A stretch of DNA of 64,000 bases, taken from assembly GCA_019351995.1 (NCBI GenBank), contig JABBOD010000008.1:1-64000 (forward strand). Reading direction: 5' to 3'. The notes beneath the pieces were generated by a model. The model was not told the origin of the DNA. It saw nothing but the letters and a program-made list of their open reading frames with translations, and made no database searches. How positions within the stretch are numbered: position 1 is the first letter of the stretch; every line of letters starts with the position of its first letter. Below are positions 2,779 to 25,279 of this stretch, piece by piece. Source of the DNA: Acidobacteriota bacterium (GTDB lineage Bacteria; Actinomycetota; Actinomycetes; Actinomycetales; Microbacteriaceae). A program made the position numbers and the translations under genes.

Positions 2779-3012
2779 CAAGTCCCCGAGTTGAGTGGCG
2801 GGCGGGCGAACATCGCAACCCTATTCCAGGGTCGGGACGCCGTTCGTCCGCGCCGCGCTTCGGCTGGAGCGCGCTGGGCAGTTTGAAAGACTCACACCTC
2901 GACGAAGGGTTGAATCTGCTGCACGAGTAGGTGATCTGAGTTGGCTTGCCTGGAAGGGCGTTCTGAACGGATGTGAGCGAACCGCGCGATGTGCATGGGC
3001 TATCGAGTGGTC

Positions 3013-4762: not shown

Positions 4763-5572
4763 ATGCAGACCATGGCCAAAGAAGACCGCGCCACACCAGC
4801 TTTCGCGACCTCGGAAGGGCTTCGCGCTGTGTTGAACCGCTTGGACGGCGCAGGTCCCGGCGCCTGGAGCGCCGACCCGGAAGCCCGTGAGTTGGTGCTG
4901 TTTGCGGCAACCAAATATCGGCGGTTGGCTGCGACGTGGCATCGTGACGAAGCGGATGCCGCCCATGCTGCGTTCCTGGCGATGGTCGCCTCAACGACCC
5001 GGCAGGCGGACGACCCGTGGGCGGTCGTGACCACGGCGGTGGCTCGGACGTTGAAAGCGGAAACCCGAGCCGACAGGCACATGATCTCCACTGAGCGGGC
5101 CCGCCACCCCGCAAAACTTGTTGACGAGCCACCGATCCGGGCTGGCGAACATGAAGAGTTCGTGTTCGACATCCTCCACACCCGGATGGAGGTTGCCGTG
5201 GGGGACGAGCAGTTGCCGATGTCGCGGCTGGCGGAAGCGTCGCGGTTTCTCACCCTTCTGGGGTGGCCCGACGAAGTTGCCACCGCAAGCGTCGACTACG
5301 TCACCGACCGGCTGGCCGGGGCCGGGAACCGGGACACGGCGTTTGAATCTCTGCGCCGGGACACTTCGATCCCCGCGCAACTGGACATCCCTCGATCCTC
5401 ATGGACACGACTCGTGCGGTTACTTCTCGGAGGCAGAACGTCTCCCGGGGTTCCGTCGCAACATGGCATCCTGGCCCGGGTCCTGCTGGGAGATACCGCG
5501 GCGACACTGCTCGCCGATGACGCCCTCGTGCTGGCCGTCACCAACACCACCGCGGGCTGGTGCGCAGCATGA
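4763..5572 (+). CDS. Hypothetical protein, possibly sigma-like, coupled to the ParB-like gene
   Basis: It has 269 residues and a clear AAGGAG 7 bases before the start. Residues 40-105 (ELVLFAATKYRRLAATWHRDEADAAHAAFLAMV, then a DPWAVVTTAVARTLKAE segment) have the helical spacing of a sigma-70 region 2. Residues 165-215 could be a helix-turn-helix (ASRFLTLLGWPDEVATASV). That reading is an inference from pattern, not a recognised family match. The stop codon overlaps the next start as ATGA, so it is translated together with the ParB-like protein, which suggests a joint role in regulation or maintenance. Confidence 0.6.
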   Translation: MQTMAKEDRATPAFATSEGLRAVLNRLDGAGPGAWSADPEARELVLFAATKYRRLAATWHRDEADAAHAAFLAMVASTTRQADDPWAVVTTAVARTLKAETRADRHMISTERARHPAKLVDEPPIRAGEHEEFVFDILHTRMEVAVGDEQLPMSRLAEASRFLTLLGWPDEVATASVDYVTDRLAGAGNRDTAFESLRRDTSIPAQLDIPRSSWTRLVRLLLGGRTSPGVPSQHGILARVLLGDTAATLLADDALVLAVTNTTAGWCAA

Positions 5573-7335: not shown

Positions 7336-8544
7336 ATGCTGAAGATCGTTCTTGGCATCCTCACCGCAGCCATGGTGCTGTTCGGGCCTGCGTTAGCGAT
7401 GATCGGCGTTGGCCTGTTCGTCAACCCTGCACTGGTGCAAGCCGAACTGTGCAACGGGTCCACCCTCACCCTCAGTGGCACCATCCCAACCAGCCTCACT
7501 GCGACCACAACCGACGGCGCCACCGTGGCCCTAAATCACACCCAGTTGGGTAGGGCTGCGACGATCATCGGTGTCGGCGCCCGCACGACTGGTGTTGGAA
7601 CGAACGGGGTGCTGATCGCGCTGATGGCGGCGTTGGCAGAGTCGGATCTGCGGATGCTGTCCAACACGACCGCCTACCCGGATTCGGGCAACTATCCACA
7701 CGACGGCGACGGCTCGGACCACGACTCGCTGGGGTTGTTCCAGATGCGCCCCACCTCCGGATGGGGGTCGGTCGCCCACCTGATGGACCCGAACTACCAA
7801 GCCGCCGCCTTCTATGGCGGCCCGACCGGCCCGAACCGCCCAACCCCTCGCGGCCTGCTGGACATCCCGAACTGGAATGCCATCTCCCTGGGTGCGGCAG
7901 CGCAAACAGTCGAGGTGTCCGCGTTCCCGGGACGGTATGCGGCGTTTGAACCGGTGGCCCGCACCATCCTGAGAACTCTCACCGGAACCGCATCAAACGG
8001 TGTGCTGCAGCCCGCAGGTGCGTGTTCGATGATGTCCGGCAACGCTCAACAGCTTGCCCAGACACTTGCCGACGCCCACACCAACGGCACATTCACCACA
8101 CTCGTCCCGGCGATGTACACGAAGGAGATCGAAGCGACCGCGGACGGGACGGTGACCACGAAATGCGAACTCGACACCCGGGTGCTGCAGGTCCTCGTGC
8201 TCGTCTTGGGCAAGTTCGGCAAGGTCGGCATCAGTGACCTTGGTCGGCCTTGCACCGGGGGCACCTTGAATTGCCCGTCCTCGCCGCACTGCCACATCCC
8301 CGATCTCGCCGTGGACTTCACTAGCGTCGGCGGGCACGTCCTGAACGGGTCGAATGCGCCCGATATCGGCCTGCTGCAGTATCTGGACACGATCCTGCCG
8401 GACGGATCCTGGGCGGGTCAGTCCCAGTGCCGCACTGCCGCCGGTGATCCGCTCCACCTGGCCCATTTGGGCCAGTTCCCGGATACCTGCACCCACCAGC
8501 ACATTGACATCCGCGGCGCCGGCACCGCACCCCTCACCCCGTGA
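7336..8544 (+). CDS. Exported peptidoglycan hydrolase candidate of the conjugation apparatus
   Basis: It has 402 residues with an N-terminal membrane or signal segment (residues 1-30). Residues 80-190 contain IALMAALAESDLRML and SLGLFQMRPTSGWGS, the arrangement of lytic transglycosylases such as VirB1 (ExxL helix with putative catalytic Glu, followed by the GLFQ motif). The last 130 residues have HCHIPDLAVDF and THQHIDI, His/Asp pairs that could bind zinc as in M15-like peptidases; this second assignment is tentative. A cell-wall opening enzyme is expected in Gram-positive conjugation loci and the position between membrane subunits fits. The stop overlaps the next start (GTGA). Confidence 0.65.
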   Translation: MLKIVLGILTAAMVLFGPALAMIGVGLFVNPALVQAELCNGSTLTLSGTIPTSLTATTTDGATVALNHTQLGRAATIIGVGARTTGVGTNGVLIALMAALAESDLRMLSNTTAYPDSGNYPHDGDGSDHDSLGLFQMRPTSGWGSVAHLMDPNYQAAAFYGGPTGPNRPTPRGLLDIPNWNAISLGAAAQTVEVSAFPGRYAAFEPVARTILRTLTGTASNGVLQPAGACSMMSGNAQQLAQTLADAHTNGTFTTLVPAMYTKEIEATADGTVTTKCELDTRVLQVLVLVLGKFGKVGISDLGRPCTGGTLNCPSSPHCHIPDLAVDFTSVGGHVLNGSNAPDIGLLQYLDTILPDGSWAGQSQCRTAAGDPLHLAHLGQFPDTCTHQHIDIRGAGTAPLTP

Positions 8545-8873
8545 ACGGCACAACGACCGCGCCAGATTCTGTCGCGGTTACCGCAGGAGCCGGGTCGGCC
8601 CCGGTTGCGGCCGTGTACCCCAACATCGGCGCGGTCGGTGCAGGGTCCACCCTGGCCGCGGTCATCGGCGCTCTGCTGACTATCGTGCTGATCGTCGCCT
8701 GCCTGATGCTGATCGTCTCCGCCGCCGCCTGGGCTCTCGGTTCAGCCCACGGCAACTACCACACGGTCGCGAAAGCCCGCACCGGTGTCCTCGTCGCCGG
8801 AGGGGCTGCGGCTTTGGCGGGGGCCGGGGTTGGGTGGATGAACTTCCTCCTCCACCTGGGCAGCACCTTGTAG
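8541..8873 (+). CDS. Small two-helix membrane protein (DUF6112-like), copy 1
   Basis: It has 110 residues with two hydrophobic helices: about 38-68 (AVIGALLTIVLIVACLMLIV...) and 84-103. Between them is a short loop with GSAHGNYHTVAKARTG. Size and topology resemble VirB2-like or DUF6112-type proteins that sit next to VirB6-like genes in actinobacterial elements. It is paralogous to the next gene. The start is GTG at 8541, overlapping the upstream stop. Confidence 0.65.
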   Translation: MNGTTTAPDSVAVTAGAGSAPVAAVYPNIGAVGAGSTLAAVIGALLTIVLIVACLMLIVSAAAWALGSAHGNYHTVAKARTGVLVAGGAAALAGAGVGWMNFLLHLGSTL

Positions 8874-8963
8874 TCGACCCGTGGTGTGGACCAGCTGGCG
8901 CACCTTCAGAGTGAACCCCGCCTCCTCCGTGTGCGGGTCACCACCATTCGGGAGCTCACCATC

Positions 8964-9293
8964 ATGCCCGCCACCGACCTCATCCGCACCGCCGCCGGGA
9001 TCCTGTTCACCGCCGTGCCGATGGACATCAGCATTCCCCCGAACGACACCGGGCTGCCCGGCATCGCGGCGCTGCGCACAGTGGTCGGCGCGGTCATGAC
9101 CGTTGGTCTGATCCTCTCGGTCCTCGCGCTGTTGATCGCAGCGATCGTGTGGGGATTCGGCGCGCACTCCTCCAACCCCCACCTCGCCGGGCGAGGCAAG
9201 AGCGGGGTGCTGGTCGCCTGCGGTGCAGCAGTGCTATGTGGCGGGGCGGTGACGTTCATCAACTTCTTCTGGAACGTCGGCCAAAGCGTCTAA
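8964..9293 (+). CDS. Small two-helix membrane protein (DUF6112-like), copy 2
   Basis: It has 109 residues and shares with the preceding protein the order helix, short basic loop (GAHSSNPHLAGRGKSG), helix and a matching C-terminus (WMNFLLHLG versus FINFFWNVG). ATG at 8964 is chosen because GGAG lies 9 bases upstream; an in-frame extension to 8886 lacks this. A pair of small membrane subunits may form a heteromeric part of the transfer channel or a pilin-like pair (inference). Confidence 0.65.
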   Translation: MPATDLIRTAAGILFTAVPMDISIPPNDTGLPGIAALRTVVGAVMTVGLILSVLALLIAAIVWGFGAHSSNPHLAGRGKSGVLVACGAAVLCGGAVTFINFFWNVGQSV

Positions 9294-9324: not shown

Positions 9325-10680
9325 GTGAGTGGCGTGTGCACCATCCCGGTCCTTGCGAGTGTGTGCCAGACCGCCGGGCAGGCGGCAGGCACCCTGGTGC
9401 AGGCACCGTTCGACTGGCTCGCCCAAGCCGCAGGGAACAGCGCCCAATGGATGTTCCAGGAAGTGTGGTCGGTTTTTGAGCAAAGCACCCTGGTCGATGT
9501 CACCAGCGACAACTACCTGAAGGTGTACAACGTCCTGTTCGGGATCGCGATCTTCATCATGCTGATCTTCTTCTGCCTGCAACTGATCACCAGCCTGATC
9601 CGCCGCGACCCCAGCGCACTACACCGCGCCGCCCTGGGACTTGCGAAGTCGGTGCTCGGATCGTTCCTGATCATCACCCTCACGGCCACCGGGCTTCAGA
9701 TCGTGGATCAGCTTTGCGTCGGCATCGTCCAAGCCACCGGGACCACTCTGAACGAGATGGGAGCAAAGATCGGCGCCCTCACGATAGGACTGACCACGAT
9801 CAACATCGCCAGCCCCGGGGCGGGGGCGATCATCACGATTTTCCTTTCCTTCCTCGCCATCGCCGCGGCCGCGATCGTGTGGTTCTCCCTTCTCGTTCGC
9901 AAAGCACTCCTCCTGGTCGGGATCGTGCTCGCCCCGATCGCCCTGTCCGGGACAGTCTGGGATGCCACCCGCGGGTGGGTGGGGAAATGGGCGGCGTTCG
10001 TGATCGCCCTGATCGTGTCCAAGCTGGTGATGGTGGTGGTGTTCTTAGTCGCAATCAACCAGCTGAACGCGCCGATCAACCTTGACCTGGCATCCCTATC
10101 GGACCCGCTCGCCGGGATCGTGCTGATGTTCGTTGCCGCGTTCGCCCCGTACATGGCGTACAAGTTCGTGTCCTTCATCGGCTTCGACATCTACCACGCC
10201 ATGTCCACCGAGCAGGAAGCCAAACAAGCCCTCAACCGGCCCATCCCCGTCCCCGGGAAACCAACCGGAGACGGGACGAAGAAAGTGCTCGACGGTGTCA
10301 CCGGACAAGGTTCCGGCGGGGCCCCGCCTCAAGGGTCACCGGCCGGCGCTGGCACCCCAGCAGCAGGTGGCGGCGGCGCGGGGGCAACGGTCGGAGCCGA
10401 AACCAGTGGGGCCGGCGCAGGTGGGGCCGGGGCCAGTGGGGCGGCTGCCGGTGGCGGGGCCGCCGCGGCGGGCCCGGCGGTGGCAGCAGTGATCGGCGCC
10501 GAACTGGTGAAGGCTGCGGCGACCGCGGGACCGAAAGCGGGCACCGCGGTCGGCGGAGCCGCCGACCAGCACCTCACCGCCAGCCAGCCGCCCATCACAC
10601 CTGCCAGCAGCGCCGGCACGGCACCGGCTGTATCTCCCGGCGTGCGGGCCGCGGTCCCCTCGCCCGCAACGAGACCGTAA
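9325..10680 (+). CDS. VirB6/TrbL-like multi-spanning channel protein
   Basis: It has 451 residues. Six or so membrane helices lie between residues 65 and 300 (for example NVLFGIAIFIMLIFFCLQ, FLSFLAIAAAAIVWFSLLV, AAFVIALIVSKLVMVVVF, IVLMFVAAFAPYMAYKFV). This pattern, with a conserved RKALLLVGIVLAPIALSGTVW segment, is that of TrbL/VirB6 inner-membrane channel proteins. The last 120 residues are a Gly/Ala-rich, disordered tail with repeated GAGGAGAS-like units, common in actinobacterial members. A GAGG-type ribosome binding site precedes the start (GTG). Confidence 0.75.
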   Translation: MSGVCTIPVLASVCQTAGQAAGTLVQAPFDWLAQAAGNSAQWMFQEVWSVFEQSTLVDVTSDNYLKVYNVLFGIAIFIMLIFFCLQLITSLIRRDPSALHRAALGLAKSVLGSFLIITLTATGLQIVDQLCVGIVQATGTTLNEMGAKIGALTIGLTTINIASPGAGAIITIFLSFLAIAAAAIVWFSLLVRKALLLVGIVLAPIALSGTVWDATRGWVGKWAAFVIALIVSKLVMVVVFLVAINQLNAPINLDLASLSDPLAGIVLMFVAAFAPYMAYKFVSFIGFDIYHAMSTEQEAKQALNRPIPVPGKPTGDGTKKVLDGVTGQGSGGAPPQGSPAGAGTPAAGGGGAGATVGAETSGAGAGGAGASGAAAGGGAAAAGPAVAAVIGAELVKAAATAGPKAGTAVGGAADQHLTASQPPITPASSAGTAPAVSPGVRAAVPSPATRP

Positions 10681-10693
10681 GAAGGGCAGGTTG

Positions 10694-12193
10694 ATGGCCG
10701 AGCTGAGCACCGAGTTCGAGTTGCGTGCGGTGAAGTTCTCCCGCCTCACCCGGCGGGGAATCCTCCTCGGCCTGTCCATGCCCCAACTGATCACCGCCTC
10801 CATCGCCGCTGCCACAATCGTCGGCGCACTGTACGTCGCAGGTGCGGCAGGGCTGGCCTGGACATCCCCAATCTGGGTCGGCGGTGCCGCGGCGACCTGG
10901 CTGCCGATCGCGGGGCGGACGGCGATCCAGTGGCTGCCGATCGCCGGACACTGGTTCCTGCGATCCCGGGTGAAACAAACCTCATACCGCCGACGGCTCA
11001 CCGCCCCACGACCAGTGGGCACACTCGCCCTTCCCGGAGATGCGGCACCGCTGCGGGAACTGGAGGACCCAGAAACCGGGGCGGTCATGATCCACGACCC
11101 GCACGCGCAAACCCTCACCGCGATCCTGGAGGTCACCCATCCGTCATTCATCCTGTTAGACCCGATCGAGCAGGAACGTCGGATCACAGGATGGGGGCGC
11201 GTGCTCGCCACGGCATGCCGGTCCGGACGCATCGCCCGCCTGCAGGTCCTGGAGCGGACCCTCCCGGACTCGGGAACCGGGCTCGCCAGCTGGTGGGCCC
11301 AACATGGCAACGACGACGGGTCCTGGGTTGCCACCACCTACCGGGAACTCATCGAACGAGCAGGACCCGCCGGAGAACGGCACGTCTGCACCATCAGCCT
11401 GTCCCTAGACATGCGTGCCGGGGCCCGGGCAATCAGGGCTGCAGGCGGCGGGATGACAGGGGCCGCGAAGCTGCTCCGACAAGACATGACCACATTTACT
11501 GCGGCGCTGCGTTCTGCGGATCTGAAACCCTCGACCTGGTACTCCCCCGGCCAGCTTGCCGTGATGCTGCGCACCGCATACGACCCCGCAGTCGCGACCA
11601 CGCTGGAACGTGCCGACGCTGTCGACCACGTCCTCGGACGCGGTCCCGGTCTCGGTCTCGGTCTCGGGCGAGTTCTCGCCGATGCGGGAGCGGTGGCGGT
11701 AACGGAATCGTGGGGAATGCTGCGGTCGGACAGCGCTTTTCATGCAGTGCTGTGGGTCAGCGAATGGCCCCGCAGCCTCGTCTATCCCGGATTCCTTTCC
11801 CCGGTTCTGTTATCGAGCGGGATCAGGCGATCGTTCTCTCTGATCTGCGACCCGATCCGCACCGATGTCGCCGCCCGCGACATCCGCAAGAAACGCACCG
11901 GGTACATTTCCGACGCGCAGCAGCGCGCGAAGATCGGGCAGATCGAGGACCTTGGCCAAACTGTCGAATACGGCGACGTCCTCCAGCAGGAAGCAGACCT
12001 CACCGCCGGGCACGGGCTCCTGCGCTACACCGGACTGCTCGCCATCTCCGCCGGCACCGAAACGGAACTCGAGGCTGCCGTTTCGGCGATCGAACAGGCT
12101 GCGATCCAGGCCTCATGCGAAACCCGCCGCCTTGTCGGACAACAAGCCCAAGCGTTCACCGCAGCAGCCCTCCCCCTCGGCCGAGGCATCTAA
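10694..12193 (+). CDS. SCO6880-family conjugation protein (PrgI/VirB3 plus VirB4 N-terminal part)
   Basis: It has 499 residues. Two membrane helices at about 25-75 follow a FSRLTRRGILLGLSMPQL segment, as in VirB3/PrgI proteins. The soluble remainder resembles the N-terminal, non-ATPase half of VirB4. This combined protein is known as the SCO6880 family and is found directly before the ATPase half in actinobacterial elements, as here. It therefore probably anchors the VirB4 ATPase to the membrane. ATG at 10694 is preferred to TTG at 10691. Confidence 0.75.
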   Translation: MAELSTEFELRAVKFSRLTRRGILLGLSMPQLITASIAAATIVGALYVAGAAGLAWTSPIWVGGAAATWLPIAGRTAIQWLPIAGHWFLRSRVKQTSYRRRLTAPRPVGTLALPGDAAPLRELEDPETGAVMIHDPHAQTLTAILEVTHPSFILLDPIEQERRITGWGRVLATACRSGRIARLQVLERTLPDSGTGLASWWAQHGNDDGSWVATTYRELIERAGPAGERHVCTISLSLDMRAGARAIRAAGGGMTGAAKLLRQDMTTFTAALRSADLKPSTWYSPGQLAVMLRTAYDPAVATTLERADAVDHVLGRGPGLGLGLGRVLADAGAVAVTESWGMLRSDSAFHAVLWVSEWPRSLVYPGFLSPVLLSSGIRRSFSLICDPIRTDVAARDIRKKRTGYISDAQQRAKIGQIEDLGQTVEYGDVLQQEADLTAGHGLLRYTGLLAISAGTETELEAAVSAIEQAAIQASCETRRLVGQQAQAFTAAALPLGRGI

Positions 12194-12242
12194 CCCCGCG
12201 CAAAGCTGCGCCACCACACGTCCGATAAGGAAGGACCCGCCC

Positions 12243-13727
12243 ATGGCCACTCACGACACGATCCTGCACGCCAGCTCCCTGATCACACCGGCGAAAGAAA
12301 CCCGCCGAGACCGGAAAGCACGCCGCCATGCGGCCGCAGACATCCACGCCGCAGCCAACAGCCGCAACCGGGCTGAGGTCCGGGCACGATACGAGGCTGA
12401 ACGGGCGCACGCGAAAACAACCACATACCTGCCGCCTGGCGGTGAAACCGGACCGGCCGCCTTGCGGTCCTACCGACGATTCCGGATCCCACCCCATCAG
12501 GACACCTCCGCCACCCTGGCAGGCGCATACCCGTTCCTGGCCGAAGGTGGCATGGGATCGGCGGGGGTGTTCGTGGGCCAAGACATGTACTCGTCCGGAT
12601 CGTTCGTCTACGACCCCTGGGAGCTGTACCGGCAAGGGATCATCACCGCACCCAACATTGTGCTCGCCGGAATCGTCGGCTCCGGCAAATCGTCCCTCGC
12701 CAAAAGCCTCTACACCCGGTCCATCCCGTTCGGTCGGCGGGTGTACGTACCCGGGGACCCCAAAGGTGAACACACCGCGATCGCCGAAGCCGTCGGCGGG
12801 AAAGCGATCGTCCTCGGGCACGGAATGAGGAACCGACTGAATCCGCTGGATGAAGGTCACCGTCCCTCCCACGTCACAGACCAGGAATGGGCAACCCAGG
12901 TCGCCTCCCGCCGACGGGACCTGATCGGCGCCCTCGCGGAGACGATCCTTGGGCGGGTGTTGTCACCGTTGGAGCACACCGCGATCGATGTCGCCCTCCG
13001 CGCCACCGTCGCCTCATCCACCGTGCCGGTGCTGCCAATGGTCGTCGACCGGATCCTCAACCCCGATAGGGACCAGGACGGCCGGCTTGGCGAAGATGGC
13101 CGCCTCCTCGGTCATGGCCTGCGCCGCCTCGTGTCCGGCGACCTCGCCGGACTCTTCGACGGTCCGTCCACCGTGACGTTTGACCCGTCGTTGCCGATGA
13201 TCTCGCTCGACCTGTCGCATGTGGCGGAGAACTCCGCCCTGATCTCAGTGCTGATGACGTGCTCGTCAGCATGGATGGAATCCGCATTATTGGACCCGGC
13301 TGGTGGGCAGCGGTGGGTGATCTATGACGAAGCCTGGCGGCTGATGCAGTTCCCCGCGCTGCTGCGCCGGATGGACGCGCAATGGCGACTCGCCCGCCAC
13401 CTGGGGATCGCGAACATGCTGATCTTCCACAAACTCACCGACCTCGACAACGTCGGCGACCACGGAACCGCCATGCGCGCCCTCGCCTCCTCATTGTTGG
13501 CCAATGCGGAAACGCGGATCATCTACCGGCAAGAAGCCGACCAACTCGGCAGCACAGCGAAAAGTCTGAACCTCACCAAGACAGAGAGGGACCTGCTTCC
13601 CGGTCTGGGGATTGGGCAGGGGCTGTGGCGGATCAAAGAACGGTCCTTCGTTGTGCAACACCAGCTACACCCGAATGAGCTTGCGGCCTTCGACACCAAC
13701 TCCCGATTCCTGGACGATCTCGCATAG
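12243..13727 (+). CDS. VirB4-type conjugation ATPase
   Basis: It has 494 residues. Walker A is GIVGSGKSS at about 143-151. Walker B is WVIYDEAW at about 358. A downstream segment, LLANAETRIIYRQEADQ, is typical of VirB4/TraC ATPases, which power assembly of the transfer channel and pilus. ATG at 12243 has AAGGAAGG upstream; the same frame is open before this, but those codons lie inside the preceding gene. The first 60 residues are highly basic. Confidence 0.85.
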   Translation: MATHDTILHASSLITPAKETRRDRKARRHAAADIHAAANSRNRAEVRARYEAERAHAKTTTYLPPGGETGPAALRSYRRFRIPPHQDTSATLAGAYPFLAEGGMGSAGVFVGQDMYSSGSFVYDPWELYRQGIITAPNIVLAGIVGSGKSSLAKSLYTRSIPFGRRVYVPGDPKGEHTAIAEAVGGKAIVLGHGMRNRLNPLDEGHRPSHVTDQEWATQVASRRRDLIGALAETILGRVLSPLEHTAIDVALRATVASSTVPVLPMVVDRILNPDRDQDGRLGEDGRLLGHGLRRLVSGDLAGLFDGPSTVTFDPSLPMISLDLSHVAENSALISVLMTCSSAWMESALLDPAGGQRWVIYDEAWRLMQFPALLRRMDAQWRLARHLGIANMLIFHKLTDLDNVGDHGTAMRALASSLLANAETRIIYRQEADQLGSTAKSLNLTKTERDLLPGLGIGQGLWRIKERSFVVQHQLHPNELAAFDTNSRFLDDLA

Positions 13728-16141: not shown

Positions 16142-16423
16142 GTGCAGCACTGTTCACCACAGCAATGTGGCCCGCACTCTCTCGCCACCAGCCACCCTGT
16201 AACGGGCACCGCTGAACCGGCGACGCAAACTGTCGAGCTGACCGGCGGCGGCTTCCTCCCAGGTGAGAACGTCGCCATCGCCGCCGTCATCCGCGAGACC
16301 CGTGCCGCAGCAGACGGCCGCGCGCACGCCGTGGTCGAGCAGATGATGGCGGCGCGCGGGGTCACCGAGGTGATCTTGTTCGGCACCAGCTCTGGCACCC
16401 TCGTTCGGGGCGGTATCTGGTGA
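16142..16423 (+). CDS. Hypothetical 93-residue protein before the coupling protein
   Basis: GTG at 16142 has GGAG 6 bases upstream; the same frame is open further up but without a ribosome binding site. The stop overlaps the VirD4 start (GTGA). The central part (TQTVELTGGGFLPGENVAIAAVI) is beta-rich, and the end (RGVTEVILFGTSSGTLVRGGIW) is hydrophobic. No family is recognised. The close coupling implies a function linked to the coupling protein. Confidence 0.55.
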   Translation: MQHCSPQQCGPHSLATSHPVTGTAEPATQTVELTGGGFLPGENVAIAAVIRETRAAADGRAHAVVEQMMAARGVTEVILFGTSSGTLVRGGIW

Positions 16424-18180
16424 GCGTGCCGCAGCTCCGGCCGGTCAACGATCATCTGCTGAACCTTGGGATGGGCACCCTGGCGGCAGGGTTCGCCTTC
16501 GCCCTCATCCTGCGTGGTGCCGGAACGGTCGCCGCCTGGGTGGCAGGACTGCCCGCACCAACAGGCGGAATCGGTGCCGGCTTGGGGGTGTTCGCTCACC
16601 CCCTCGACCCGGGTGTCCCGCTCGGCGACCCCGGGTTGAACTGGGCACTGTACTGGGCTGTCGTTGCGGTGATGTCGACAGCTGTGATTCTCGCGAGCGT
16701 GTGGGCAGTGGTGAGGATCCGCGCTCACGCCACCCAGGCGGACCCGCGGAAACTGAACGGCACCGCGACCGCAGCAGAAATACGCCGGCTGGCGTCGCCG
16801 CGGCAGTTGGTGAAGCAGGCGTCCACGTTCCGGCCATCCCTCAGGCATGCCACGGCGGCCGATGTCGGCTATCTGCTGGGGACCGCACATGGCCGGCAGG
16901 TGTGGGCGACGGTGGAGGACTCCATCCTGTTGATCGGGCCGCCCCGCAGCGGGAAAGGGCTCCACATTGTCATCAACGCCATCCTCGACGCCCCCGGTGC
17001 TGTGATCAGCACCAGCACCCGGCCCGACAATCTCACCGCCACCCTCCGCGCCCGGGAACGAAAGGGGCCCGTGGCGGTGTTCGATCCGCAGCAACTCGCG
17101 CCGGGCCTGCCGGCGGGGTTGCGGTGGTCGCCGGTGCGCGGTTGCGGCGACCCGCTCACCGCAATGATCCGCGCCACCGGCCTCGCGGCCAGCACCGGCC
17201 TTGGCGGCAACGCGGTCGAGAACGGATCGTTCTGGGAAGGCAAAACCCGGGCGGCGATCCAAACCCTCCTCCACGCCGCCGCCCTCGACGGCAGGGATGC
17301 TCGCACCGTCTACCAGTGGGCGCTGAGCCCGTCGGCGGCCGGTGACGCGGTCCGTATCCTGCAAACCAACCCGGCCGCGGCATACGGGTGGGCGGACGCC
17401 CTGGACTCGATGATCCAATCCGACCCCAGAACCCGCGACTCGATCTGGCAAGGCGTGAGCCTCGCCTTCCAGGCTCTCGCCGACCCCCGCGTCCTTGCCG
17501 CCGTCACTCCACCGGTTGGCGAAGAGTTCGACCCGATCGACTTCCTGACCCAGCATGGAACCCTGTACCTGCTCGCCACCGGTGCCGGAGCTGGCGCATC
17601 CGCCGCCCTCGTCGCCGCGTTCATCGAAGACCTGGTGGAAACGGCCAGGAAACTTGCCGCCCGCTCCCCCGGCGCCCGACTGGACCCGCCAGTGCTGATG
17701 GCGCTGGATGAGATCGGCAACCTCGCACCCTTACCGTCCCTCCCCACACTGATGGCCGAAGGCGGCGGGACCGGGATCACCACCATGCCCGTGCTGCAGT
17801 CCCTGGCGCAGGCGCGGGAGAAATGGGGAGACAACAACGCCAACGCGATCTGGGACGCCTCGATCGTGAAAATCATCCTCGGCGGCGCCTCCAACAGCCG
17901 TGACCTGCAAGACCTCTCCACCCTGATCGGCGACCGCGACGAACAAACCGACTCGGTCTCCACCGACCAATACGGCGGCTACTCATCACAACGTTCCCTG
18001 CGCCGCGTCCCCGTCATGCCACCCAACGTGCTCAGAACGCTGCCGTTCGGAACAAGCGTCACCATGCTCCGCACCGCCAGACCCATCATCACCACCCTGC
18101 GGCCCTGGACCAACCGGCCCAATGCCCGCCAACTCCAGCAGCAACGCACCACCCTCGAAGAACAACTCCGGGCTCACTGA
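16420..18180 (+). CDS. VirD4/TraG-type conjugative coupling protein
   Basis: It has 586 residues. Two membrane helices lie at about 15-42 and 73-100. Walker A is GPPRSGKG at 173-180 and Walker B is VLMALDEIGNL near 425-435, followed by the TraM-recognition region (GTGITTMPVLQSLAQ). The family is the hexameric ATPase that hands the relaxase-DNA complex to the secretion channel. Its presence with VirB4, VirB6 and a hydrolase marks this as a conjugative rather than merely mobilisable element. Confidence 0.9.
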   Translation: MSVPQLRPVNDHLLNLGMGTLAAGFAFALILRGAGTVAAWVAGLPAPTGGIGAGLGVFAHPLDPGVPLGDPGLNWALYWAVVAVMSTAVILASVWAVVRIRAHATQADPRKLNGTATAAEIRRLASPRQLVKQASTFRPSLRHATAADVGYLLGTAHGRQVWATVEDSILLIGPPRSGKGLHIVINAILDAPGAVISTSTRPDNLTATLRARERKGPVAVFDPQQLAPGLPAGLRWSPVRGCGDPLTAMIRATGLAASTGLGGNAVENGSFWEGKTRAAIQTLLHAAALDGRDARTVYQWALSPSAAGDAVRILQTNPAAAYGWADALDSMIQSDPRTRDSIWQGVSLAFQALADPRVLAAVTPPVGEEFDPIDFLTQHGTLYLLATGAGAGASAALVAAFIEDLVETARKLAARSPGARLDPPVLMALDEIGNLAPLPSLPTLMAEGGGTGITTMPVLQSLAQAREKWGDNNANAIWDASIVKIILGGASNSRDLQDLSTLIGDRDEQTDSVSTDQYGGYSSQRSLRRVPVMPPNVLRTLPFGTSVTMLRTARPIITTLRPWTNRPNARQLQQQRTTLEEQLRAH

Positions 18181-18353: not shown

Positions 18354-19433
18354 ATGCTGGATCCGAGCGCGGCGCACAGCGCACGTGACGCCAAGCTTGC
18401 AGGCCTGCACGACCAGCTGGTCGACGCGGTCGAGGGTCTGGTGTCTGGTGACGACTGGCGACGGGCACTCGAGTTCGCGGCCAGGTTCCGGTCCAGGTCG
18501 TTCAACAACACCCTGCTGATCTGGGTACAGCACACCGCCGCATACACGGCCGGACGCGTCCCGGAACCGATGCCGTCCTACGTCGCCGGGTTCAAACAGT
18601 GGCAGCAACTGAACCGTTCCGTGCTGAAAGGTCAGACCGGATACATGATCCAAGCCCCGGTGACTGCCCGGTTCGCCACCGCAACACCGCAGAATGCAGA
18701 CACGTGGCGGCGGTTGGGCCGCATGGAGAAACCCCGCCCCGGCGAGGTTGTGCAGTCCCGGATGATCGCAGTGAAGCCCGCCTACGTCTGGGACCTGTCC
18801 CAGACCGGCGGAGACCCGGTGCCCGAACGGCCTCCAGCCCGCCTGCTGGAAGGGGCCGCACCGGCTGGGTTGTGGGACGGGCTCGTCACCCAGATCCAGG
18901 ACCGTGGGTTCACGATCCAACGAGTGCCGAATGAGCAGGTGATTCATGGTGCGAATGGGCTCACCGACTACACCGCCCGGACCGTCGCGGTTCGCACCAA
19001 CATGGACGAAGCCGCGCAGGTGAAAACCCTCGCGCACGAACTGGCCCATGTGATGCTTCACGGGCCCGACAACCCGGACGCGGTCGCCCACCGGGGCATC
19101 GGCGAAGTGGAGGCCGAATCGGTGGCGCTCATGGTCGGCGCCGCCCACAACCTCGACACCAGCGGCTACACGATCCCCTACGTCGCCTCCTGGGCCAGCG
19201 CCGTGGACGCTAAGACGGCGACGGAGGTTGTGCAGGCGACCGGTGAACGGGTCCGCGCCACAGCGGGTGCGATCCTCGACAAGCTGACAACGGCGCAGGC
19301 CAGCACTGGCGACCCGCCGGGCCTGACCCGCGAAACTCCCGCAATCGAGCAGACCCCACGAGCGCCAGCACTGCGACACCCTCGTGTGCCAACCCAACCG
19401 CACACCGCGACCGCCGCGGCCCCAAGATTGTGA
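18354..19433 (+). CDS. ArdC-like protein with IrrE-type zinc metallopeptidase motif
   Basis: It has 359 residues. Residues 30-110 (FAARFRSRSFNNTLLIWVQ ... VAGFKQWQQLNRSV) match the ArdC N-terminal ssDNA-binding domain found in antirestriction proteins and plasmid primases. Residues 215-260 hold KTLAHELAHVMLHG (HExxH zinc motif) and a downstream EVEAESVALMVG with the third ligand, as in ImmA/IrrE-like peptidases. ArdC proteins protect incoming single-stranded DNA from restriction in the recipient. It is the first gene after the repeat array, where early-expressed genes are often placed. Confidence 0.8.
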   Translation: MLDPSAAHSARDAKLAGLHDQLVDAVEGLVSGDDWRRALEFAARFRSRSFNNTLLIWVQHTAAYTAGRVPEPMPSYVAGFKQWQQLNRSVLKGQTGYMIQAPVTARFATATPQNADTWRRLGRMEKPRPGEVVQSRMIAVKPAYVWDLSQTGGDPVPERPPARLLEGAAPAGLWDGLVTQIQDRGFTIQRVPNEQVIHGANGLTDYTARTVAVRTNMDEAAQVKTLAHELAHVMLHGPDNPDAVAHRGIGEVEAESVALMVGAAHNLDTSGYTIPYVASWASAVDAKTATEVVQATGERVRATAGAILDKLTTAQASTGDPPGLTRETPAIEQTPRAPALRHPRVPTQPHTATAAAPRL

Positions 19434-19449
19434 TCGACCAGGGGCCGTG

Positions 19450-20343
19450 ATGGACATCGTCTGGCTGCTGTCCGAGGCATCAAAACTGTCGTTACCTCAG
19501 GCTGCCGTCTACTATGCGAGCGCCGGGGTGCCGGTGTTCCCGTGCGTTCCCGGGCAGAAACGTCCGTTGACCCTGCACGGTTTCCACGACGCCAGCACCG
19601 ATCCACGCCAAGTGCGCACGTGGTGGCTGCGGTCGCCAACGGCGAACATCGGGATCCCCACCGGCGAGGCCTCCGGTATCGAGGTTGTTGACATCGACCG
19701 GCGACCGGAACGCTCCGGCTTCAGCTCGTTCGAGTTGGCACGTCGCGCCGGCATCACTGCCGGCTGGGCCGCTCTGGTGCGCACCCCATCCGGCGGCATG
19801 CACGCCTACTACCCTGCCGACCCGGACCGCCAGCAACAGTCCTGGCAAGCCCCAGACGTCCATATCGACTTCCGAGGCAACGGGGGCTACATCCTCGCCC
19901 CACCATCGATCGCCGGCGCAGCACAACAACACCGCGGGTACGCGCTGATAGCGGGCGCCAAACAGCCCACGGCAGCGATCAATGCTGAGGCCCTCCGCTC
20001 ATTCATTGACCCGCCGCCGGCGACGCCCACCACGGCGCACCGACGCCAGCCAACGGACATGGACGGTTTGGCCCGATGGGTCGCCGCCCGCGGTGAGGGA
20101 GAACGCAACAGAGCCCTCTTCTGGGCGGCATGCCGCGCCGCGGAAAACGGCATCCCACCCCAAGAGCTACATGCCATCCTCGGCCCAGCAGCACAGCAAG
20201 CAGGCCTCCCGCCCCGGGAAATCGCCACAACAATCCGTTCCGCACTGAGGACAACCGCGACTCGAGCAATGCCCACCCCTCCGGCTGGGAAAGGCCACAC
20301 GTCAAGGACAGAGCGACGGGACAACAGACCGCCCCAGCTCTGA
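19450..20343 (+). CDS. Primase-polymerase domain protein (bifunctional DNA primase/polymerase, N-terminal type)
   Basis: It has 297 residues. Residues 15-190 show the archaeo-eukaryotic primase fold of mobile elements: AAVYYASAGVPVFPC, GIEVVDIDRR (first metal-binding acidic pair), TPSGGMHAYYP (the sGG-H motif) and HIDFRGNGGYILAPPS (last acidic residue and nucleotide site). The C-terminal part is a helical primase-associated tail. No helicase domain follows, so it could prime complementary-strand synthesis after transfer rather than drive full replication (inference). ATG at 19450 is chosen; GTG one codon upstream is possible. Confidence 0.8.
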   Translation: MDIVWLLSEASKLSLPQAAVYYASAGVPVFPCVPGQKRPLTLHGFHDASTDPRQVRTWWLRSPTANIGIPTGEASGIEVVDIDRRPERSGFSSFELARRAGITAGWAALVRTPSGGMHAYYPADPDRQQQSWQAPDVHIDFRGNGGYILAPPSIAGAAQQHRGYALIAGAKQPTAAINAEALRSFIDPPPATPTTAHRRQPTDMDGLARWVAARGEGERNRALFWAACRAAENGIPPQELHAILGPAAQQAGLPPREIATTIRSALRTTATRAMPTPPAGKGHTSRTERRDNRPPQL

Positions 20344-20354
20344 CCCGACTTCGA

Positions 20355-20442: not shown

Positions 20443-20458
20443 CCAGAACGGGTTCTGG
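20443..20458. promoter_or_regulatory. 16-bp palindrome upstream of ssb, candidate operator
   Basis: CCAGAAC-GG-GTTCTGG is a perfect 7+7 inverted repeat with a 2-base centre, 68 bases before the ssb start. Its size and symmetry suit a dimeric repressor. It lies in a gene-free stretch that probably carries the ssb promoter. Confidence 0.45.
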
Positions 20459-20526
20459 TGTGTGCGCCGCTCCTTAGTTGGGACGGACCTAACCCCGGCC
20501 CCTCAACCTGTCGAAGGAGAAGTCCA

Positions 20527-21090
20527 ATGGCAATCCGCACACAACAGTCCCTGTCCGGCTTCATCGTCACCGGCCCAGAACTGAACGTGACCAGCACCGG
20601 CGAGGCCCGCTTCTACGCCAAGGTCGGCCAGGAACACTTCCAACGCAACGACGACGGAACCTTCACCCAGCTTGAGTCGACATTCCACAACCTGGTCCAG
20701 TACCGCAAAGCCGCCGAACGCTCCTACGAGCGGTTCCAGAAAGGCGACCACTTCGTCGCCGAAGGCTACGTCCACGAATACGACCACGACATCGACGGCC
20801 ACACCCAACGCAGGGAAGAGTTCGTGGCCAAAAAGATCGGCCACGACGCCGCCCGCCAGAACTACACCGTGAATCGCAGAACCCCCGCCGCCGGGCCGAT
20901 AGACCAAGACGACAACGTTCAAACGAGCGGGATCACCGGCCAACCCCCGGCAGCGCACGCTGCAGCCCCCGGGTCTGCGCGGGCCACCGCATCGGCCCTC
21001 AGCGCACAGCGTCGAGATCAGCTCGCCGACAACAGCCCCGGCGGTACCCGCAGGAAAACTCCGACGCGATCAAACACGCTGGCGCTCTGA
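20527..21090 (+). CDS. ssb: Single-stranded DNA-binding protein of the element
   Basis: It has 187 residues. Residues 5-115 follow the OB-fold SSB pattern (LSGFIVTGPELNVTSTGEARFYAKVGQ ... FHNLVQYRKAAERSYERFQKGDHFVAEGYV). The last 75 residues are a flexible Ala/Thr/Pro-rich tail that lacks the acidic DDDIPF-type end of host SSBs, so partner recruitment may differ. AAGGAG lies 7 bases before the ATG at 20527. SSBs are common establishment genes of conjugative elements. Confidence 0.75.
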   Translation: MAIRTQQSLSGFIVTGPELNVTSTGEARFYAKVGQEHFQRNDDGTFTQLESTFHNLVQYRKAAERSYERFQKGDHFVAEGYVHEYDHDIDGHTQRREEFVAKKIGHDAARQNYTVNRRTPAAGPIDQDDNVQTSGITGQPPAAHAAAPGSARATASALSAQRRDQLADNSPGGTRRKTPTRSNTLAL

Positions 21091-21193
21091 CTTTCGCACC
21101 CCCGCTCACTGGTGACGACCGAGACCGAACCACGGCCCCCTTCCCCCGCTACCAGCACTGACCCATCCGACTCGACACCGCAAAGGTCCCACG

Positions 21194-21781
21194 ATGGCCG
21201 ACAACCCGACCCTTCCGATCGACGACCCCGATCTCGACGACCAAGGAAGCAACGACGCCCCGTTCACCAACGACCCCGACGAGGGACACCTGCTGGCAGA
21301 ACCGCCGCACCCGATCAACTGGAACCTGCTCACCGCAGAAGACGCTGAACAGGAATGGTGGGCACTCAACAACTGGGTGAACTGGCTACGCCACACGTAC
21401 GGCCTTCCCGTCACGATCATCCCGCCCTACTGGCACCGGCATCCCGAACTCGTCTGGGAACTATCCGCACTGCACCTCCACTGGCTCTGCACCTACGACC
21501 TCGAACAAAACGGCTCCGCACCCATCGGCTGGCACGCCGACTTCGCAGCAACACAAGAACGCCTCCGCGAATGGGTCGCCGCAGCTGGAACAAAACTCGA
21601 CACCGACCGCCCAACCCGGCAAACGGTATGGCCGGGCGAAGAAGCCGGGACGCCACCGGAAGAGCGTTCGACCGAGAACCGCGAAAAGGACTTCGAAGAG
21701 TTCGTCGCCGCGGATGTGGCTGGCCGGCAGAAAGCCGAGGAGGAGTTCTATCACCGCCTCCTTCACGACCTCGGGGCCTGA
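21194..21781 (+). CDS. DUF4913-type protein
   Basis: It has 195 residues. The acidic N-terminus is followed by EWWALNNWVNWLRHTYGLPVTIIPPYWHRHPELVWELSALHLHWL, which carries the W-rich pattern of DUF4913, a family met almost only in actinobacterial mobile elements and of unknown role. The C-terminus (residues 140-195) is a charged helix. It follows ssb by 103 bases with no recognised features. Confidence 0.7.
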   Translation: MADNPTLPIDDPDLDDQGSNDAPFTNDPDEGHLLAEPPHPINWNLLTAEDAEQEWWALNNWVNWLRHTYGLPVTIIPPYWHRHPELVWELSALHLHWLCTYDLEQNGSAPIGWHADFAATQERLREWVAAAGTKLDTDRPTRQTVWPGEEAGTPPEERSTENREKDFEEFVAADVAGRQKAEEEFYHRLLHDLGA

Positions 21782-21783
21782 TT

Positions 21784-21978
21784 ATGCAAGTGAGTGGTGA
21801 ACCTAGTCAGCCGTTTCTGTCACTCGTGGGCGCACCCGCCGTCGAGGCTTTCTTGTCTGGGTGGCGAGAAGGCACGGCTCGGCAAGCTACCTGCCCGGTC
21901 GCCAAGGACGTTCTCGATGAGATTGCGCTCATGCTGGAGGCAACCGGTCAGTCGGCGGTCCTCACCCAATGGGAGTGA
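21784..21978 (+). CDS. Hypothetical 64-residue protein next to the integrase
   Basis: ATG at 21784 starts 2 bases after the DUF4913 stop codon. The sequence has a folded-looking composition (AVEAFLSGWREGTARQ, then DVLDEIALMLEATGQSAVLTQ). The 3' end overlaps that of the convergent recombinase gene by 17 bases. No family is recognised. It could be a small accessory such as a recombination directionality factor, a guess from position only. Confidence 0.45.
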   Translation: MQVSGEPSQPFLSLVGAPAVEAFLSGWREGTARQATCPVAKDVLDEIALMLEATGQSAVLTQWE

Positions 21979-23605
21979 TCACCACACGCTCTGCTACGGG
22001 AGACCGGCCGGGAAGTGCATCGAGACGGTAGATGAGCCGACGCAGATATCCGCGCTTCTCTGCGATGCTCAGACTGGGCCACTCGTTGATCAGGCTTGGT
22101 CCGTCGGCGATTGGAAATTCTTCTAGCGTCAGGGCGTCCAATCGGCGTTGTAGCTGCTCGATGCGAACCTGCACATCTTCGATCAACTGCAGTAGGACCG
22201 TGACCATGGATCCGCGATACTGACTCGAACCTTGTTTCTCGATCAGCGTCCGTCGTTCCTGCTTCGTTTGCTCAAGCTCAGCAAGTAAGCCCCCCACCTC
22301 AGAACTCGTCTGACCAGCGCGACGCCTCGCGCGGGCATTCGCCAGCGACTCGTCGGCGACTTGCGAAAAGAACCAACCCAATACGTAGGCCTCCGCCTTC
22401 GCCGCGTCTAGCGTGCACGAGCCGGGGCAGTTGCCGGTTCCTCGCTGCCGATTCGCCATGCAACGGTAGGCGTAGGTTCGCGTGCTCACGCCGTTGTGGT
22501 TCCTTCTTGACTTGTTTTGACCGTACAGACGGTTGCCGCACTGGCAGAACACGAGTCCAGTTAGCAGCCATTCATGCGATCCCCAAGGATTTCGCACGTT
22601 CGAAGTTCTTCCCTGCTCAAGCAGGCGCCGAACCCGCATCCAGGTCACGAGGTCGCATACGGGCTCCTGGGAGATGACAGGATCACCATTGACGTCGAGC
22701 GCGATGTAGTCCAGAAGTTCAATCTTGACTCCACGCTGATGCTCGGGCACTCGTCGCATGCGATAGCCAACCATTCGTGGCGACACTAGCGACCGATAGA
22801 TTGATGCCTCGTAGACGAAGCCCCCAGAAGCCGTCGTGATCTCGTAGTGCTCCTTCCAATACCTTCCGATCGCCGACAAACTCTTTCCCGCCAGCACATA
22901 CGTGACCGCGTCTCGTAGTGCTGGGAACTCAATCGGATGGGGTACTAGCCGAACGCCAGACCGGCCGAGTTCATCAGTCATCCTCGGCCCAGATCTCCAG
23001 CCAAAAGGTGTCGTTCCACCATGATGAAACCCCGCCTCCGCCAAATGCCTTTTTGCTGCAAGTTGCCTTTCACTCATCGAATCGGTCTCAACTTCAGCTA
23101 ACAGCGCTTTGATTCCCGTAACGAGCTTTGCTCCTGCCGTTGCCGTATTCAGTTCCTCGGCCGAATCCTGGTGAGACACCAGATAGACGCCCGACCTTTG
23201 GCATTCGCCGATCCATTCAATGCAGCCGGATGCGACCCGGTTCGTACGATCGAGCTTCCAGAACGCCACTGCCTTCACCACGCCTGACCGAATGTCGCTA
23301 TTCAGTTGACGCCACGCCTTGCGGGTACGCACGGCCGAAGAGCTCGCCGAGTCGTTGTCGATGTACTCCCCCATTACCGTCCAACCACCATCCGCAAGCA
23401 GCTTTCGGTGAAGGTCGATCCGCTGCCTCTCGATCGCGTCTGCGCCGTCGCGGTGGTATTTCGACAATCTCAAGTACAAATAGATCGGCTTCGTCCCCGT
23501 GGCAGGCATTTCCGGCCCCGTCCTGGCGAAGGCCGGATAGACGACTGTGCGCGCTATTCGACCCGGACGAGCGTTGGCGCCGGCGTTCTTGTTTTCAATG
23601 GTCAT
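21962..23605 (-). CDS. Large serine recombinase (integrase of the element)
   Basis: It has 547 residues. The resolvase domain begins with IYLYLRLSKYHRDG (catalytic Ser in YLRLS, about residue 48) and ERQRIDLHRKL; DRTNRVASG and the long KHYEIT region continue into the recombinase domain. A zinc ribbon follows (FCQCGNRLYGQNK ... YRCMANRQRGTGNCPGSC, four cysteines), then a coiled coil (LLAELEQTKQERRTLIEKQ). The start is decided by AAGGAG: it stands 6 bases before ATG at 23605, but directly abuts the ATG at 23611. The gene lies against the broken comM, as serine integrases usually lie beside their attachment site. Confidence 0.9.
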   Translation of the reverse strand: MTIENKNAGANARPGRIARTVVYPAFARTGPEMPATGTKPIYLYLRLSKYHRDGADAIERQRIDLHRKLLADGGWTVMGEYIDNDSASSSAVRTRKAWRQLNSDIRSGVVKAVAFWKLDRTNRVASGCIEWIGECQRSGVYLVSHQDSAEELNTATAGAKLVTGIKALLAEVETDSMSERQLAAKRHLAEAGFHHGGTTPFGWRSGPRMTDELGRSGVRLVPHPIEFPALRDAVTYVLAGKSLSAIGRYWKEHYEITTASGGFVYEASIYRSLVSPRMVGYRMRRVPEHQRGVKIELLDYIALDVNGDPVISQEPVCDLVTWMRVRRLLEQGRTSNVRNPWGSHEWLLTGLVFCQCGNRLYGQNKSRRNHNGVSTRTYAYRCMANRQRGTGNCPGSCTLDAAKAEAYVLGWFFSQVADESLANARARRRAGQTSSEVGGLLAELEQTKQERRTLIEKQGSSQYRGSMVTVLLQLIEDVQVRIEQLQRRLDALTLEEFPIADGPSLINEWPSLSIAEKRGYLRRLIYRLDALPGRSPVAERVVITPIG

Positions 23606-23629
23606 CAGCATCTCCTTGTTCAGGAGGTG

Positions 23630-23656
23630 CGCTTTCCATCACCCAACTCGTCCAGG
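23630..23656. other. Right attachment-site junction between element and comM
   Basis: On the minus strand ComM coding sequence runs through HGVLFLDEL and then changes abruptly: family members continue with an acidic-phenylalanine segment, here replaced by GDGKRTS and a stop. The break lies within about 23,636-23,650, 30 to 45 bases from the integrase start. The crossover dinucleotide cannot be fixed without the other junction. Confidence 0.65.
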
Positions 23657-24570
23657 AAGAGCACGCCGTGGGCCGCCCGAGCCGCGGCCCCTGGCCGGAT
23701 CACCCCGCTGCCGCCGCCGACGATTGCCGCAGCGCTGGCCGTGTGGTGAGGCGACTCGAGTGGCGGTCGCGTCGACAGTCCGCCGCGAGCGGGGATCCCC
23801 GCGAGCGAACGAATCGAGGCGACCTCCAACGCCTGCTCGGCGCTGAGATCCGGCAGCAGCCCCGGCAGCCGGGAGGCGAGCATCGTTTTGCCGGCACCGG
23901 GCGGACCGAGCAGGTACACGTGATGGCCGCCTGCTGCGGCAACCTGCATGGCCTCCACCGCATCCGGATTACCGATGACGTCGGCGAGATCGCCGTCCTC
24001 CTCGTCAGGAGAAGCCGGCACCGTCGGCATCAGCGCCTCGCGTGGGATCGGTTCGAGCTCGGCCCCGTGCCAAATCGCCGCATCGCGCAAGGAGATGACG
24101 GGGACGACGCGCACTCCGGGTACCAGGGCGGCCTCGTCAGCATTCCCGGCGGGCACCAGCACCGTCTCGAACCCGGCTCGAACCGCGGCGAGGACAGCCG
24201 GCAGGATGCCGGGGAGTGGGCGAAGCCTGCCGTCCAAGCCGAGCTCGCCCAGGTGCACCACGCGGGCAACCGAGTCAGCGGAGACCTGTCCGTCGGCGGC
24301 CAGCGCGGCAAGAGCGATTCCGAGATCGAATCCCGAACCGTGTTTCGGCAGCGCGGCCGGGGAGAGATTGACGGTCAGTTTGCGCGATGGCAACGGGCAA
24401 CCCGAGTTGCCCGCCGCCGCACGCACACGGTCGCGCGCTTCGCCGAGCGCCGCATCGGGGAGACCGATCAGCACGAACGCGGGGAGATTGCTGGAGATAT
24501 CGGCCTCGATCTCGACGACGGCCCCGTCGAGGCCGAGCAGCGAGATGGCGTGCGCCCGCCCGATCGGCAT
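23637..24570 (-). pseudogene. comM: comM / YifB Mg-chelatase-like AAA+ protein, N-terminal part, split by the element
   Basis: About 311 residues of ComM remain. The N-terminal Lon-like fold starts MPIGRAHAISLLGLDG and includes LPAFVLIGLPDAALGEARDRVRAA and the NLSPA-type segment. The Mg-chelatase AAA+ core begins with Walker A LLGPPGAGKTMLA and reaches the Walker B GVLFLDEL. Complete proteins have about 500 residues, so the rest of the ATPase and the C-terminal domain should lie past the left end of the element, beyond this window. ComM is a branch-migration helicase for natural transformation in bacteria where it has been studied. It follows yraN, the usual yraN-comM-dprA order. Confidence 0.85.
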
Positions 24571-24607: not shown

Positions 24608-24961
24608 TCAGAAAACCCGCTCGAGATGCTCGACGATCGCGGGAAGGTCGCGGGGAGCGATCACCGCGACCGCGTCGATCCGGATGCGCCCGGCCCCCGG
24701 GTGCGCATCGCACCAGGCTCCCGCCAACCGCCGCAATCGCGCGAGTTTCGCGACGGTGATCGCCTCGAGCGGATGCCCGAACGCGACGCTCGAGCGGGTT
24801 TTCACCTCGACGAAGACGGTCTCGTCACCGTCACGCAGCACCAGGTCGATCTCGCCCTGCTGGCACCGCCAGTTGCGATCGAGGAGGGTCAGGCCTCGTC
24901 GCAGCAGGTGCTGCTCGGCGATGCGTTCACCGCGGGTGCCCAGTTCGTCTTTCGCTGCCAT
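24608..24961 (-). CDS. YraN family protein (UPF0102, nuclease fold)
   Basis: It has 117 residues. GTRGERIAEQHLLRRGLTLLDRNW, then QGEIDLVLRDGDETVFVEVKTRSS is the YraN signature: a restriction-endonuclease-like fold with E-D...ExK acidic/lysine residues. The function of the family is unsettled. ATG at 24961 fits family length; the frame stays open 81 codons further upstream without support. It sits before comM in the same direction. Confidence 0.85.
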   Translation of the reverse strand: MAAKDELGTRGERIAEQHLLRRGLTLLDRNWRCQQGEIDLVLRDGDETVFVEVKTRSSVAFGHPLEAITVAKLARLRRLAGAWCDAHPGAGRIRIDAVAVIAPRDLPAIVEHLERVF

Positions 24962-25054
24962 TCGCCGAGGATGCCGCCAACGGCATCCCCGCGACGGCCG
25001 GGAGCAGCTGCCTGTGCGAAACGACTCCGAGCGCACGGTGTTGGCGATGGGACG

Positions 25055-25060
25055 TAGGCT
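25055..25060 (+). promoter_or_regulatory. Leaderless-type -10 element TAGGCT
   Basis: TAGGCT ends 6 bases before the GTG start at 25067, so transcription would begin at or next to the start codon. The same hexamer and spacing recur at several other genes of the window. Confidence 0.5.
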
Positions 25061-25066
25061 CGCAAG

Positions 25067-25279
25067 GTGATCCTGCTCGCCGTGTTGCTGCTCCTCAATG
25101 CCGCCTTCAACGTGCTGGTCTGGCCGACGTTCTACCGCCGGGTGGCCAAGGACTCGCGGGCTCGCGACGCCCAGGGCAAGCCAACGCGCTTCCTCATCGT
25201 GCACGCGGTGCTGATCGGCGCGGCCCTCGTCATCGCTCTGGTCTCAGCGGTCGCGGGGATCCTGGCTCTGATTCACTAG
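25067..25279 (+). CDS. SCO4848-family small membrane protein
   Basis: It has 70 residues with two hydrophobic helices (LLAVLLLLNAAFNVLVW and VLIGAALVIALVSAVAGILAL) separated by a basic loop (FYRRVAKDSRARDAQGKPTRFL). The layout and the NVLVWPTFYRRV motif fit the SCO4848 family, conserved in Actinobacteria and of unknown function. The start is a GTG with no ribosome binding site but a TAGGCT 6 bases upstream. Confidence 0.75.
   Translation: MILLAVLLLLNAAFNVLVWPTFYRRVAKDSRARDAQGKPTRFLIVHAVLIGAALVIALVSAVAGILALIH

Follow-up and report, generated by a model that had tools for sequence, protein, structure and literature searches.

The window, that is, the whole stretch of 64,000 nucleotides analyzed here (C4:1-64000, from an assembly of 2.88 Mb in 91 contigs), contains the N-terminal half of comM (23620..24570, minus strand), which encodes 316 amino acids including eight contributed by inserted DNA. 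This piece matched Pfam Mg_chelatase and ChlI, covering positions 1-118 of the 207 of the Mg_chelatase model. The ComM part ends with LFLDE and is followed by the element-encoded residues LGDGKRTS and a stop, the cut in comM lying after the Walker B glutamate codon. The junction reading places the crossover dinucleotide GA (comM strand) at 23648..23649, bases 1 and 2 of this codon. On the element side, the attL element arm, equal to the attP right arm, reads ATGGAAAGCGCACCT on the comM strand (23625..23639) and is conserved beside the recombinase gene in related loci. The chromosomal neighbor upstream of comM is a UPF0102 (YraN) gene (24608..25204, minus strand), and the left junction is internal to a 78-kb contig.

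The gene next to the junction encodes a large serine recombinase of 549 amino acids, termed int1 (21962..23611, minus strand), with Resolvase, Recombinase, and zinc ribbon domains in one protein (PF00239, PF07508, and PF13408) and a match to a PHROG integrase (6.3e-71). The distance from its ATG (23611) to the crossover is 36 bases. The earlier note on this DNA had placed the recombinase start 30-45 bases from a ComM coding sequence broken at Walker B, and both statements were borne out. A 64-residue ORF converging on int1 (21784..21978, plus strand; tblastn matches in 4 of the 25 related loci surveyed below) is a candidate directionality factor by inference only, and the other int1 neighbor is a 195-residue protein without a Pfam match or an assigned function (21194..21781, plus strand; matches in 14 of 25 loci).

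Genes of a transfer region occupy window positions 5560-21781, and most of their products have counterparts in the related genomes G190, G138, and G043. On the plus strand, this region encodes a ParB_N protein (5560..6633), a cell-wall-hydrolase-like protein with PHROG endolysin and tape-measure matches (7336..8544), two DUF6112 proteins (8541..9293), an SCO6881-like membrane protein (9325..10680; 101 bits, below the cut-off of 325), an SCO6880-family conjugation protein (10691..12193; NF042935 with 432.6 bits against a cut-off of 60), and a VirB4-like ATPase matching below curated cut-offs (11865..13727; its start is uncertain and it overlaps the upstream ORF). These are followed by a type IV secretion system (T4SS) coupling protein of the TraG/VirD4 type (16420..18180) with counterparts in the same three genomes, an ArdC-like antirestriction protein with an M78 domain (18354..19433), a primase-polymerase with Prim-Pol and PriCT_1 domains (19384..20343), and an SSB-like protein with a weak match below the Pfam cut-off (20458..21090). 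A Type ISP/IIG restriction enzyme (37..2781, minus strand) is probable cargo of the element. Its frame stops after 914 residues, as compared with 1646 in the PADLOC model, and the contig start is 36 bases beyond.

The element has two of the parts expected of an integrative and conjugative element, namely an integrase with defined chromosomal ends (the right one read from contig ends) and a T4SS ATPase and coupling protein, the VirB4-like match being below curated cut-offs. The scanned window genes were T4SS-like rather than phage-like, apart from the one hydrolase-like protein that matches tape-measure and endolysin PHROGs. A TrwC relaxase was not found in this fragmented assembly and is present in the sister elements of G190, G138, and G043, indicating that the element is incomplete either in this organism or in the assembly. 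The description of the element as conjugative is therefore supported by its T4SS genes and by TrwC in the sister elements, but not by a TrwC relaxase in this assembly.

PF13335, the C-terminal domain of ComM, was matched only once in the same genome, on contig C87. This contig opens with GAGGCTCCGGAG, beginning at the Walker B glutamate codon (EAPEFS...), and its comM frame reaches a stop at 612. From 694, directly downstream of comM, it carries a gene that we take to be DprA-like, and a gene similar to it sits downstream of comM in G002. A pattern search of the genome for the element arm (up to two mismatches) gave five matches against two for the control. The only exact match was in contig C39, 4 bases before its end region, and the last bases of this contig are CGAGGTGTACTTTCCATTGGGCGATGAGG. 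The end of C39 and the start of C87 meet at the same comM codon with a 4-base overlap and are unjoined in the assembly, so the right junction is inferred from two contig ends; once joined, it would read as the element arm, GA, and GGCTCCGGAG. These ends probably supply the other junction with the C-terminal half of comM that the earlier note had called for, and place the attachment in comM rather than in another gene. The second half of comM was not removed, as had been proposed, but separated with its own frame intact, and no intact copy of comM was found in the assembly. As judged from its contig end, C39 is probably part of the same element. C39 (L113, G000:C39, 3-14807) carries metal-related cargo comprising two P-type ATPases, a multicopper oxidase, two cation-efflux proteins, and an ArsR-type regulator.

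Both same-genus genomes have an intact comM, which rules out a short comM shared by relatives, and supply the uninterrupted reference gene. An int1-type recombinase was found at E 1e-30 in one of these three genomes, that of the window itself, and was absent from both relatives. Among 398 genomes of the family, six matched int1 at E 1e-40, including the genome under study. A survey of genome contigs gave 25 related recombinase loci in 20 genomes, five of which have two loci each, and several of these loci are the named records of the family genomes (G numbers). They comprise 18 loci of the window type (int1) and seven of a second type (int2), approximately 50% identical to int1. Fourteen of the 18 int1 loci start beside a ComM N-half and a 15th (L102) beside a short N-half remnant. 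Thirteen N-half alignments end at query residue 336/337, and that of L099 is longer, with a junction that reads the same. Three int1 loci (L095, L098, and L111) lie outside comM, indicating that this type is not strictly confined to the comM site. Six of the seven int2 loci are beside a C-half cut at GA, the seventh (L109) being on a 5.7-kb contig without comM. In total, 21 of 25 loci are at the Walker B glutamate codon. Recurrence in 14/18 int1 and 6/7 int2 loci means that the junction at this codon is not due to chance, and it supports site-specific insertion of a mobile element next to a serine recombinase, as first suggested. Integrase homologues beside split comM genes, which the note had asked to be sought in other genomes, were found. 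Matches to the recombinase were partial in L103, L111, and L112 and contained one stop in L110; thus, some copies may be broken. The coupling protein was found within the flank of 13 of the 18 int1 loci, and none of eight element proteins sought was found in any of the seven int2 loci.

A tree was built from 22 of the 25 loci together with the window protein and two very long-branched outgroups. The six int2 rows grouped together (support 99/100) and the window protein grouped with Lacisediminihabitans (100/99); the tree does not resolve int1 as a single clade. The recombinases of Brevibacterium senegalense and Metallococcus carri, which belong to different families, are nearly identical, pointing to transfer between families. 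No match was found in phage records at E 1e-20, viral contigs gave two loci with 25-28% identity, and plasmid records gave none at E 1e-30, on which ground a plasmid-borne recombinase was rejected.

Both junctions can be read on a single contig in G138, where about 68 kb separates the comM halves and the junctions have only GA in common. There, the element arm preceding the C-half is AGGTGTACTTTCCAT and the one following the N-half is ATGGAAAGTACACCT, both at a distance of 8 bases from GA, and the outer junctions of a stack of elements in Leucobacter coleopterorum agree with them. The arms are less symmetric in G267 and G059, and the halves are separated by about 74 kb in G043, 13 kb in G267, and 15 kb in G059. 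The G138 sites have the features of serine integrase attachment, with unlike attP and attB, a short core (GA only, in G138), and dyad arms. The dinucleotide is invariant in 52 of 52 intact comM sequences from 49 genomes, and in the same sequences the 40-base window containing it is placed 130th among 1490 (top 9%) in conservation, lower than Walker A and the sequence surrounding codon 378. The claim that the site lies in the most conserved part of comM is thus only approximately correct.

Interruption of comM is not restricted to these recombinases. A comM search of the 398 family genomes gave 360 matches at E 1e-30, from which 31 genomes with two matches and seven with a weak single match were re-inspected, the other 322 not being looked at singly. 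At least 12 of the 398 genomes are split at Walker B, a count that leaves out G117, G171, G196, G369, G176, and other partial cases. Six of these carry int1 or int2 (G043, G059, G138, G190, G267, and G000, the genome under study), and in the other six the serine recombinase near the junction belongs to another group (G057, G081, G128, G193, G227, and G275, the last read on the C-side alone). In G227 (L144, 383-3085), the ComM N-half and a serine recombinase share a single open frame of 900 residues, which could give a read-through fusion. In G088 (L148) and G234 (L150/L151), comM is interrupted close to the ANPCPCG stretch, at codon 375/376, and accompanied by tyrosine integrases, representing a second integration site. 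G117 (L152) and G171 (L153) have a full comM and, 9-13 kb upstream, an additional N-half fragment that stops at the Walker B codon, perhaps left by an element that departed or restored comM; in L153 a terminase gene lies between fragment and full gene. G196 (L154) has a piece of the comM C-half at 1472-1750, preceded by an arm-like sequence, 600 bases upstream of a full comM. Three further candidates (G146, G170, and G208) were rejected as splits, as their N-part continues beyond codon 336 up to the end of its contig and overlaps the following one.

comM and its Walker B motif are already known as a recurrent target. According to Durrant 2022 (PMC10083194), 12.4% of predicted site-specific serine recombinases target a magnesium chelatase/ATP-dependent protease gene. 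These enzymes are of the same class as int1, and the gene is, as annotated, the one interrupted here; the main-text passages on this target mention neither the codon nor the actinobacterial family nor stacking. Tn6022-like and Tsy transposons with TnsF are described as targeting a conserved 10-bp stretch in the comM Walker B motif (Faure 2023, PMC10293859), with a target selector derived from a tyrosine recombinase, whereas int1 is a serine recombinase. The Wolbachia phage sr1WO (PMC9203015) is reported to use a serine recombinase and a magnesium chelatase gene, with halves on both sides. It is a phage and the window element is of the T4SS type, and the likeness is at the level of the gene. 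Croucher 2016 (PMC4774983) describes insertions of mobile elements in comM of Aggregatibacter, Acinetobacter, Mannheimia, Francisella, and Pseudomonas and proposes that they block transformation, so the transformation idea is also already published; those insertions occupy the orthologous place in comM, but have integrases of another group (similar to CF65_00446) and occur in other phyla. The main text of PMC12884075 does not mention comM, YifB, or chelatase. In the literature covered, which excluded the supplement of Durrant 2022, we found no report of the base-level site in this family, of the int1/int2 division, or of stacked defense islands.

Taken together, the window very probably contains one end of a presumably conjugative integrative element of the T4SS type, whose own large serine recombinase joined attP to a fixed comM attB at GA. 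This interpretation draws on the anatomy, the left junction, the matching right contig ends, the crossover in relatives, and the recurrence in many genomes, all as observed. As read in close relatives, attP would consist of the dyad arms around a GA center, and strand exchange would take place at the GA that opens the Walker B glutamate codon, leaving comM as two separate halves with intact frames. int1 is the likely agent of this insertion, and C4, C39, and C87 appear to be linked in the way described above. Walker B is needed for ATP hydrolysis in such ATPases, and losing the part after it should abolish hydrolysis. The truncated ComM ATPase is thus presumably inactive, the downstream DprA-like gene is probably uncoupled from its promoter, and transformation may be affected.

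Why comM serves as the target can be explained in several ways. We give about an even chance to the explanation that the gene is chosen as widespread, conserved, and dispensable, loss of function being a side effect. This agrees with the invariant GA (52/52) and the top 9% conservation of the site window, with the six Walker B insertions that have serine recombinases of other groups, and with the use of codon 375/376, close to another top-ranked window, by tyrosine integrases. However, the site window is not the best conserved (rank 130/1490), many other conserved dispensable genes exist, and competence genes are reported to be enriched among targets (Durrant 2022, PMC10083194). The last point speaks for the proposal, made in the earlier note and in print (Croucher 2016, PMC4774983), that the element gains from the loss of ComM, since transformation with homologous DNA would remove it. 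Destruction of Walker B and the presence in the host of ComEC, together with the DprA-like gene directly downstream of comM, also fit this proposal. Nevertheless, a conserved sequence by itself would also make a good site, and sr1WO uses the same gene in intracellular Wolbachia, where transformation seems unlikely, so we regard such a benefit to the element as possible but rather unlikely.

Excision of a Listeria phage regulates the integrity of comK, and excision of the present element under some condition could likewise restore comM. Stops were found in none of 14 N-halves and in one of six C-side alignments, there on the element side of the junction, and pN/pS of the halves in this genome was 0.09-0.18 versus 0.14 and 0.21 for the intact pair G001-G002. 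The absence of decay fits either a recent insertion or occasional restoration; because recent insertion explains the same data and no intact comM is present in the assembly, regulation of this kind appears improbable. A prophage or an assembly artefact, suggested by the right junction at contig ends and the match of int1 to a PHROG integrase family, was rejected as hardly credible, given a left junction inside a 78-kb contig that recurs in independent genomes, the lack of a close recombinase in phage records at E 1e-20, and only 25-28% identity to two loci in viral contigs.

Integration of the T4SS-type element at the Walker B codon may be one part of a wider arrangement. In five genomes both types occur together, int1 next to the N-half and int2 next to the C-half. 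An internal site consisting of the upstream arm, GA, and an int2-type right arm was read in G043, G190, and Leucobacter coleopterorum, and none was found within the stretches looked at in Leucobacter sp. 7(1) and Metallococcus carri. The int2 islands are small, lie beside the C-half, lack conjugation genes, and are stacked on an int1 element in the three genomes read. PADLOC, run on chosen large ORFs only, matched 14 of 18 proteins (E 1e-10) from small islands at int1/int2 sites in G190, G059, G043 (two), G267, Leucobacter coleopterorum, Leucobacter sp. 7(1), and Metallococcus carri, the last two counted without defined borders and the middle G043 island without an assigned recombinase. Only 1 of 11 proteins from comM islands of other recombinases and 2 of 10 chromosomal window proteins matched. 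The island sample is small and chosen by size; therefore, the enrichment in defense genes is only a lead. Near full-length matches were obtained for GajA, HamA, a type I methyltransferase, RmrA, and PDC-S53, HamB covered most of its model, and the other island matches were partial or generic (kinase, ATPase). Several int2-side islands carry defense genes (Gabija, Hachiman, and RmrA). Matches to SMC-like ATPases were weak, as a chromosomal control protein that resembles SMC matched too, so the LmuB match in G043 is not regarded as secure.

From these observations, we tentatively propose, at somewhat less than even probability, that the Walker B codon of actinobacterial comM is a shared dock with two tiers, in which T4SS elements with int1 occupy the N-side and int2 islands of approximately 8-19 kb without conjugation genes occupy the C-side. 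Since int1 and int2 both cross at GA and have similar arms, they would stack by exchange of att half-sites, and the islands would mostly be anti-phage defense cassettes, mobilizable by the resident conjugative element. In SCC elements, Ccr serine recombinases stack cassettes in tandem at rlmH, some with restriction genes. The proposed dock would work like SCC, in that serine recombinases stack elements at one gene, but the gene is comM instead of rlmH and the parts are different. int1 itself falls outside the SCC recombinases, scoring 42.5 bits against CcrB (cut-off 900) and 24.1 and 22.3 bits against other Ccr models (cut-offs 700 and 900).

These results define attB, attP, and the crossover to the base for a type of serine recombinase present in several actinobacterial families, where it might be used as a genetic tool. 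They also add counted cases to the open question of whether comM is favored for interference with competence or as a conserved, dispensable harbor. If the stacked defense islands hold, they would show an exchange of defense genes at one chromosomal spot in these bacteria.
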